Assembly (NCBI GenBank): GCA_963924555.1
Contig: OZ004594.1
Span: forward strand, 1,891,563-1,955,562
Direction of reading: 5' to 3'
Length of the DNA: 64,000 bases
Source of the DNA: Crambe crambe
Lineage: Eukaryota > Porifera > Demospongiae > Poecilosclerida > Crambeidae
A program made the translations under genes and the position numbers. Below, piece by piece: positions 6,374 through 29,679 of the stretch. A model generated the notes under the pieces. That model was not told where the DNA came from. It made no database searches and saw only the letters and a list, made by a program, of their open reading frames with translations. Position 1 is the first letter of the stretch, and each line of letters opens with the position of its first letter.

Positions 6374-9300
6374 TCAGGTTGTGTCTTTGTCACCATCTTC
6401 ACCAGACGGTTCAAATTTAATACTAACGGACATTTCCATGTTTGTGTCGTCAGTCTTGGAGTTAGTAATGACCGCAAACATAGAGTCATTGGACTGCAAT
6501 TTGTTAGTTGAACTGTCCACTGTACTCAGCTGCAGTAAACAACAACAATAACAAAAAACATTAAGCCATAAAAGTGGCTTGCCATAAAGGGGTTCGTGTC
6601 CTTTATTGGGGAGGTCCCACCATTATTATTTTCATAAGGACACGGGCATACCACTCTATTCAAATCACCTTGGATACGATTATGCACCCCTGTCTTTATC
6701 ACTAGAGAAAATATGCAGTGAAACCACCCCAAGGGCCATCAACAAAAGGTTTCACAACACCTATAAGTTCTAACTCTTACTCGATTCAATTCATGTCTGA
6801 GCTTCTGGATTTCCTGCTGAAGCTGAGTGATGATTTCCTTGGAATCCGAGGACCTATTTACAGTAGTGGTACCACCGCCCATGATGTTAAGACCCTCAGG
6901 GTCCTTCCACAGACCATAAAACTAACAAATAGTTTACAAACAGTTGTTAAGACAAACACCTATACTTCATTAGTAATCATTTGCCCATGGAGGATTTGCC
7001 AAATGCTACTTGGCCATGGTATGTTATAATTAGGTGAAAAAGTGTGCCAGAATATATAGCACTTACATTGCTACTTGGCCATGGTATGTTAAAAGTGGGC
7101 CAGAATATGGCACTTAGGATCAACCCATTGTTGTAATGTAAAACTTAAGTGAGCTGCCATCGGATGTCAACTTCCAAGGGTGGGCTCGTTTGAGTGATTG
7201 ATAATTATAATTATGTCTATATATATATGGCACTTTTTATCACCCAGCATCGTTTATTTCATCTCCAATCTGTTGCCGTAACTTTTAAAAGGCATACCAT
7301 TGCATTATGTAACAAGTCTTCTACATAGTTGCCAAATTGATCATCACACACTGTCATAATTCACATTGTACATACCCACGTCATTTCGAGATCCACGCTC
7401 AAGATCTTTGAAGTGACATGTGTATGGTCACGGGTTAAAGATTAGTAGCTATGCACTCTGTGCGACCTTTAAAGTCATCAATGTGTCCTAGACTTTTTTC
7501 TATTCACACTCAATTTGGTCCAAATGTAAACATAACTTGTGACAAGTTAACATACTTTTGGTATGAAGATGAGACACAGCAGAAAAGTGTTTCCAAGCAT
7601 CACCATAATCCCCACCACAGAGTAGAACACATCCACGAAGTCTTCCAATAAAATCCCAATCGCTGCAAGTGGAATGGAGAGTATCACTATTCCATATACT
7701 GCCATTCCTATCAATTTGGAGTCATTCAAGTGACGGATCTTGACTTTTCTGGTCTCGAATGCAAGGAACGTTCCGACGATCAATAAGATGCCTTTGTAGA
7801 CAAAGAGGACTGCCAGCCAGGCCAGGCGGGTTGCACGGGGTTCGGTACCACATAGTCCTACTATCTGGGGAAGTGCACGTGTCTACATGAGGAGAGAGAG
7901 AGAGAGAGAGAGAGAGAGAGAGAGAGAGAGAGAGAGAGAGAGAGAACAAATGAAGAGTATAAGAGAGATTATAAGGGTTCACTGACAACTCCCTTCAGGA
8001 AGTTTGTATATCCTCAGCAGCTGCATGCAGTGGACTGACATAACTACCACATTATTATCATTAACATCAGACAGAGTATTGTAATGCATAACCCACATCT
8101 TTAGTAACCACGACAATAAACTAGATAATATTGTTCCCAGACTAAACTCACTCAAGAGTGGACTATGCCCACACATAGAGTTATATGGGTGGTTTTTTTC
8201 AAAAATGTGTGCTCAACATGCAATATGGGGCAACAGATGTTTCATTGGCTGATACAAGTCCACAAGGGGTCTTTATTTGGGGGATAACTCCAAGGACTTC
8301 TACTGAGGGGCTTTCATGAGGTATGTGCACTAAAACACTCTGTAGCTTCTTTCCTGGCAGCATAACACAGTACATTTGAACTCTTCAGTGTGGACACTTG
8401 GGCAACAACAATGGAGACATGATTAATTTTTAAAGGTCCCTAAAATTTGTTCAGCTCCTTCCCTTCCCCTCCCCTCCCCTTCCCTTCCCTCCCCTTCCCC
8501 TCTCCTCCCCTCCCCTTCCCTTCCCCTCCCCTTCCCCTCCCCTTCCCTTCCCCTCCCCTCCCCTCCCCTCCCCTCCCCTCCCCTTCCCTTCCCTTCCCTT
8601 CCCTTCCCCAAATAATATAATAATCATGACAACTACTCTAATCGGTGTTTGCAATTCATTCAGGAACATCTGTCAGTGAGATTGGTTCCAAATAGAACTA
8701 TACATGCATCTTTTCAATAAAATTAATTATACTATGGCAGTAAAGGGTGTGCAGATCACGGAACACATTAGTTTCCATTCTCCAGTACTACCAATTGCAG
8801 AACTTATCAAGAATGTCAACTATAGCCAAACTCGTGACTGAGGGTTCTTACATTGGACACCAGCTCCTTATCTTGAAGGGTAAGTCGAGAAGAGGGAAAG
8901 GCAGTGACAAATATCAGGAAGATGATATCAAGTACCACCAGAACGCCCACCATTAGAAACAAGACCCAGTCTTGAATAATCTAGGAAGAAGAGTTTCTTA
9001 TTATTCTCGGAGTATGATATACAGAGGAACACCCTAATAATGGACACACTTGGCTTGTAGAGTAGAGAGGTTGTAAGGTCATTTTGTATAGAGCGCATAT
9101 ATAAAGGTACTTTTAGATAGTCCATAATTATATAGAGTGTATGTATAAAGGTAGTCTTATATATATAAAGGTAGGTTTGTCCTTTTTAGGAGGTGTCCTT
9201 TATTGAAGGTTGCACTGACTGTACACTGTTATACTAACATAACATGCGTTGATTACTCCTTACATTCTTTGTGCTCCGCTTGTGTTTGTTTGAGCTATAA

Positions 9301-29679: not shown

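Follow-up and report, generated by a model that had tools for sequence, protein, structure and literature searches.

The window, by which we mean the whole stretch of 64,000 nucleotides of Crambe crambe DNA that was analysed, contains two GABA-B-like receptor genes, A and B, which lie head to head, together with two intronless class C receptor genes, C and D (Table 1). The models of A and B are predictions read exon by exon from the genomic sequence; the introns of the two genes have GT-AG ends throughout (31/31), the frames are open in both, and the intron phases agree at the introns that A and B share. The exons of A were furthermore reproduced by a purpose-written spliced aligner, but since its profile contained A, this agreement checks the aligner more than the gene model.

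Table 1. Receptor genes, coil segments and the inter-genic gap, in window coordinates
Feature	Position	Strand	Description
Gene D	1024..3381	-	Intronless class C receptor, 785 aa, flytrap + 7TM, no coil found
Gene C	3625..6051	-	Intronless class C receptor, 808 aa, flytrap + 7TM, no coil found, about 23% identical to A and B
Gene A	6374..18107	-	Predicted GABA-B-type class C receptor, 17 exons, 828 aa; ATG 18107, stop 6374
Coil of A, exon 16 part	6781..6843	-	21 residues; exon 17 opens with the codon of the last core Leu (6529-6527)
Inter-ATG gap	18108..18351		244 bp between the start codons of A and B
Gene B	18352..29679	+	Predicted GABA-B-type class C receptor, 16 exons, 893 aa; ATG 18352, stop 29679
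Coil of B, exon 15 part	29012..29071	+	SVKIDELKNTITALKRDIEN; resumes in exon 16 at 29428 (V, K, R, K)

Both predicted proteins match ANF_receptor and 7tm_3 far above the Pfam cut-offs, B having besides these only one sub-cut-off match to Peripla_BP_6, and the cysteine-rich NCD3G domain, which sits between flytrap and 7TM, is not listed for either at E 0.001. The best PDB match of each is GABA-B subunit 2, aligned over the full length (A, E 3e-97; B, E 2e-102), the GABA-B chains matched being presumably human. A scores 330 bits against GB2 and 306 against GB1, and B scores 347 against GB2 and 224 against GB1 (242 for chain 9jr0_A, also GB1), while among the best 60 rows mGlu/CaSR chains reach at most 71 bits and GPR156 89-102 bits, the latter over the 7TM part only. 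Indeed A and B align to the human GABA-B subunits over the whole body and share with the human GB1/GB2 heterodimer a flytrap joined directly to a class C 7TM and followed by a heptad-helix tail. An earlier note on this DNA had recognized two GABA-B-like class C receptors, which the two domains and the full-length matches bear out, and at the level of predicted protein A and B are confirmed as intact flytrap and 7TM class C receptors of the GABA-B type. They are 34% identical to each other. The matching exon lengths that had been remarked upon are real in 4 of 15 comparable exons, but two of these sizes, 171 nt and 66 nt, also recur in 11 and 13, respectively, of 20 modelled paralogs, and are therefore a sign of common descent and not of partnership.

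Tail coils of A, B and their paralogs

The coil peptides begin at residues A757 and B791 and extend for about three heptads in each cytoplasmic tail, compared with at least four for the human coils by our alignment. Their cores consist of Ile, Leu and Val only (in A Ile-Leu twice and then Leu-Leu, in B Ile-Leu twice and then Ile-Val) and hold no specificity residue. The heptad score of each tail lies above all of 2,000 shuffles, and single-sequence AF2 models of the tail exons consist of a linker and one confident helix each, of 22-23 residues, at residues 24-46 of the exon in A and 36-57 in B, with pLDDT averaging 93-96 over the two final ten-residue blocks. The coil of A alone gave 6 matches in the PDB, the best at E 0.42. 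That each receptor possesses a coil is thus upheld, but the proteins do not end in it as had been claimed, since 50 and 82 residues follow the coil in the two proteins. In both genes an intron lies inside the coil, after position c of the third heptad. The donor of this intron is weak in B (gtgatg); were it read through, the protein would stop at ENVMK, just past the coil.

Coils of this kind are not confined to A and B. The host genome has 153 PF00003 matches, counted at the level of exons and not of genes, and multi-exon receptor arrays lie on host contigs C9, C12 and C17, from which 20 paralogs were modelled (C9 2.47-2.61 Mb, C12 5.005-5.065 Mb and C17 1.37-1.43 Mb). A coil-like tail is found in 13 of the 20, in eight by a heptad score of at least 3.5 and in five by eye, these being C9_2598 and four of the C12 models; the five score at most 1.0, in our reading owing to an early exon end or to a proline within the scored segment. 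Among the seven paralogs without a coil, the tail exon was found and is coil-less in three, and was not found in four. As judged from the predicted tails, the coil is not special to the A/B pair but is a family trait, and the tail helix was probably inherited from the family ancestor rather than being a device of this pair. A and B are 27-32% identical to the listed array members. A large family with clustered duplicates has likewise been described for the mGABA-like receptors of another sponge, Ephydatia, with more than 120 predicted (PMC7385117), but A and B lie outside the host arrays and are nearer the human receptors in the 7TM tree (83/86).

The pairing of the coils was assessed by a simple g-e' charge count, which gives +2 for A/A, 0 for B/B, which has K-K contacts, and +2 for A/B, or +1 or +2 when A is slid against B by one heptad. 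The heterodimer preference, taken as 2AB-AA-BB, is therefore +2 for A/B, and it is +4 for the human pair, which served as sole control and has the right sign. The value of A/B is however reached by 35% of random pairs with random e/g letters, and by 6 of 91 coil pairs in the genome (C12_5051 being set aside), namely A/B itself and five others that tie. As homodimers, all but one of the 11 distinct paralog coils lie at +4 to +6, the exception being +2, and the maximum possible for the shorter coils is +4; B/B has the lowest homodimer score among 13 distinct coils. By these counts the predicted helices of A and B are less self-complementary than nearly all scored paralog helices and not mutually hostile, and they hint, weakly, at a slight lean of the A/B helices towards a heterodimer. 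Tails that homodimerize only had been named as an observation that would speak against partnership, and here the result is mixed, the count allowing both A/A and A/B and giving B/B nothing. As a separate observation, the coils of the array receptors are self-complementary in g-e' charge, as if tuned for homodimers, though they are related in sequence and hence not independent cases.

Descent and residues bearing on function

The first tree covered 26 of the 30 rows (all except the C9 plus-strand models 2523500, 2535500, 2542700 and 2551500), a second tree, used for AU tests, covered 24 rows, the intronless C and D being also set aside, and separate 7TM and flytrap trees covered 17 of the 30; human GB1 and GB2 were the only GABA-B receptors from outside. 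The two human receptors are sisters (96/93), as are A and B in the 26-row tree (92/95). In the 24-row tree A and B stand unresolved beside the arrays; there AU tests reject A+GB1 (p 7e-6), B+GB2 (p 3e-4), A+GB2 (p 9e-5) and B+GB1 (p 6e-5) and leave A+B unrejected (p 0.45). In the 7TM tree A+B (91/87) groups with the human receptors, apart from the arrays, and A+GB1 and B+GB2 are again rejected. In the flytrap tree A groups with the arrays (89/90), B falls just outside them (80/86) and the two are not sisters; A+GB1 is rejected here (p 0.003), whereas B+GB2 (p 0.073) and A+B (p 0.155) are not. The path from A to B measures 2.04 in the 26-row tree, against 1.97 from GB1 to GB2, and 2.26 in the 24-row tree, and the branch of B is flagged as long. 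On this evidence the duplication that gave A and B would be separate from that of GB1/GB2 and about as deep, although with two outside receptors the test is a limited one and loss after an older duplication, or differences in rate, could fit as well. Direct orthology of A with GB1 and of B with GB2 is rejected by the AU tests on the whole protein and on the 7TM part, and neither A nor B appears, under the model used, to be a one-to-one orthologue of a human subunit. A further single-frame GABA-B-like gene of the host genome, L035 (host C10:7762000-7767500; 965 codons open, with a long acidic tail), groups with human GB1/GB2 on a long branch and with modest support (87/98 in the 26-row tree and 81/55 in the 24-row tree).

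For the ligand pocket we compared the residues that we take to be the GABA contacts, in GB1b numbering W65, S130, S153, H170, Y250, W278 and E349. At these positions the alignment places S, S, T, V, F, W, Q in A and D, S, T, I, F, W, Q in B, so that each keeps two of seven contacts (S130 and W278), has threonine for S153 and is changed at the other four; the serine at the S130 position is kept in both, unlike in GB2. The GB1-like GABA contact signature is, on these aligned letters, found in neither A nor B, and the single-frame L035 has a gap at four of the seven positions. The third-loop motif, read from the alignment, is LNDSK in A and LRDSK in B, compared with LNDSK in GB2 and INDHR in GB1, and a loop of the LNDSK type presumably matters for G-protein coupling. 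The second loop of B resembles that of GB2, while that of A is longer, as in GB1. With two of seven contacts in each receptor and a GB2-like third loop in both, no split into a binder and a signaller is visible. Likewise, no RxR retention signal is present in the tail of A or of B, B's only RxR motifs, at residues 69 and 633, lying elsewhere in the protein. According to PMC12499500, trafficking control in fly GB2 uses the second loop and C. elegans GBB-1 acts alone, so that the premise of the earlier note, that in bilaterians GABA-B works only as a heterodimer, was too strong.

Head-to-head geometry and the dimer question

The gene models support the head-to-head orientation and the 244 bp between start codons that had been reported. 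The gap holds one CATGCGCA, a motif which we take to be NRF-1-like and which has five copies across the window, and one TATAAA on the minus strand; its CpG o/e is 0.59, a value as high or higher being found in 99 of 522 background windows. Promoter motifs were considered as evidence and left as weak, there being one NRF-1-like site in the gap and five in the window. A gap of this size would leave room for little beyond one shared divergent promoter region. Among 55 pairs of neighbouring class C genes less than 20 kb apart, 46 are tandem, six divergent and three convergent, with A/B counted in, so that an old divergent pair stands out in a family whose neighbours are mostly tandem. This count rests on a partial list of 99 genes, that is 77 intronless matches of at least 550 aa entered by hand with approximate extents, the 20 modelled paralogs, and A and B, with shorter intronless matches and the exon-level matches below them left aside.

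Short divergent spacing, as in A/B, is however also a feature of the divergent, bidirectional-promoter pairs of the sponge Amphimedon (PMC4773876), of whose genes 18,054 (45%) count as potentially divergent; starts lie within 1 kb for 11,379 of the 40,122 gene models there. The same source reports the NRF-1-like motif class, of which the A/B gap has one member, in Amphimedon promoters. Unlike the Amphimedon pairs, A and B are paralogous receptors of one family. A second GABA-B-like head-to-head pair lies outside the window on host contig C9, at about 2498423-2519194. Its start codons are 183 bp apart (minus-strand ATG at 2507884, the outermost in frame, and plus-strand ATG at 2508068), or 186 or 267 bp with the alternative minus-strand ATGs at 2507881 and 2507800. 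The first-exon regions of this pair are 88% identical over 244 nt, and the pair is therefore recent. Its minus-strand partner has the coil, while the homologous tail exon of the plus-strand partner lacks it, so that tight divergence does not imply matched coils. The head-to-head geometry is consequently only partly special to A and B, although it does set them apart from human GB1 and GB2. A recent inverted duplication as the origin of A/B was rejected, the two being 34% identical and their flanks retaining no similarity (best E 0.62). A search of prokaryote and viral contigs with a single 106-aa exon of B, for synteny relatives, found none, and no treatment of a head-to-head GABA-B pair in a sponge was found among the open-licence PMC papers listed, as judged from titles and opening lines of abstracts.

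From the gene structure, domains, coils, tree position and loop and pocket residues we infer, as the probable overall explanation, that A and B are old, intact GABA-B-type receptors derived from a duplication separate from that of human GB1/GB2. Each would sense a small amino-acid-like ligand through its Venus-flytrap, though not by the GB1 contact set, would dimerize through the flytrap with the short tail helix stapling the dimer, and may couple to G protein through the GB2-like third loop. As to the type of dimer, A and B may be separate homodimeric receptors whose adjacency is simply gene order in a compact genome and a tandem-duplicating family, and this we regard as a serious possibility, if somewhat short of an even one. 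It agrees with the commonness of short divergent spacing in Amphimedon (PMC4773876) and with the tandem order of most class C neighbours, and since most paralog coils are self-complementary, homodimers look like the family rule; B/B, however, with its K-K contacts, has the lowest score of the 13 distinct coils, and an old divergent pair remains conspicuous among mostly tandem neighbours. That A and B instead form an obligate or preferred heterodimer, with one divergent promoter making the subunits in step, is possible but rather doubtful. The proposal of a matched heterodimer made earlier for this locus is partly supported, being right as to receptor type, geometry and coils, and A and B are also mutual best blastp matches among the 30 rows compared, have split about as deeply as GB1/GB2 and are nonetheless adjacent, which with flanks devoid of similarity suggests that the linkage may be old; the positive charge preference of A/B, where nearly all paralog coils score as good homodimers, points the same way. 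But that preference is matched by about a third of random pairs and by five other coil pairs of the genome, the cores lack a specificity residue, the coil is widespread in paralogs, the 183-bp pair on C9 has a coil-less partner, short spacing is common in Amphimedon, and neither a binder/signaller split nor an RxR in either tail is seen. On balance we consider homodimers slightly likelier than the A/B heterodimer.

A third explanation, by which A and B are the orthologues of GB1 and GB2, respectively, and the bilaterian heterodimer would thus be as old as animals, appears very improbable. It draws on the bit scores, which favour GB2 over GB1 far more in B than in A, on the second loops, GB2-like in B and longer in A as in GB1, and on the coil identities, for which the order A-GB1, B-GB2 beats the crossed one by 6 (p 0.016; single matches p 0.21 and 0.08). 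The coil order was left as weak evidence, the comparison being unplanned, and against orthology stand the AU rejections of both pairings together with the absence from A of the full GABA contact set and of the RxR tail signal of GB1. Since A+GB1 and B+GB2 are rejected, an A/B heterodimer would have arisen independently. The fuller version of that idea, in which A and B are an obligate heterodimer independent of GB1/GB2, both flytraps bind ligand, linkage has been kept for equal dose ever since a duplication as deep as that of GB1/GB2, and the array paralogs are homodimers with self-complementary coils, we think unlikely. If A and B do pair, GABA-B-type obligate class C heterodimers arose at least twice, once in a sponge. 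The coil-like tails in A, B and 13 of 20 modelled array paralogs, along with the lack of a one-to-one grouping with GB1/GB2, suggest that the coil came before subunit specialization, which bears on the question whether homodimers or heterodimers were the first to use the GABA-B coil.

Intronless receptors and other frames

Genes C and D are 65-67% identical to each other, and D, like C, is about 23% identical to A and B. That these intronless neighbours lack a coil had been stated before and agrees with shuffle p values of 0.74 and 0.60 for the two. Single-frame class C receptors of at least 550 aa occur at 77 places in the host genome, beside multi-exon relatives, and may have originated by retroposition. 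The window furthermore contains a lysine-methyltransferase-like frame (Methyltransf_16) at 29910-30950 (+), which begins 230 bp past the stop of gene B, an ankyrin-repeat frame at 36848-37744 (-) and a sulfotransferase frame at 40136-40894 (+).
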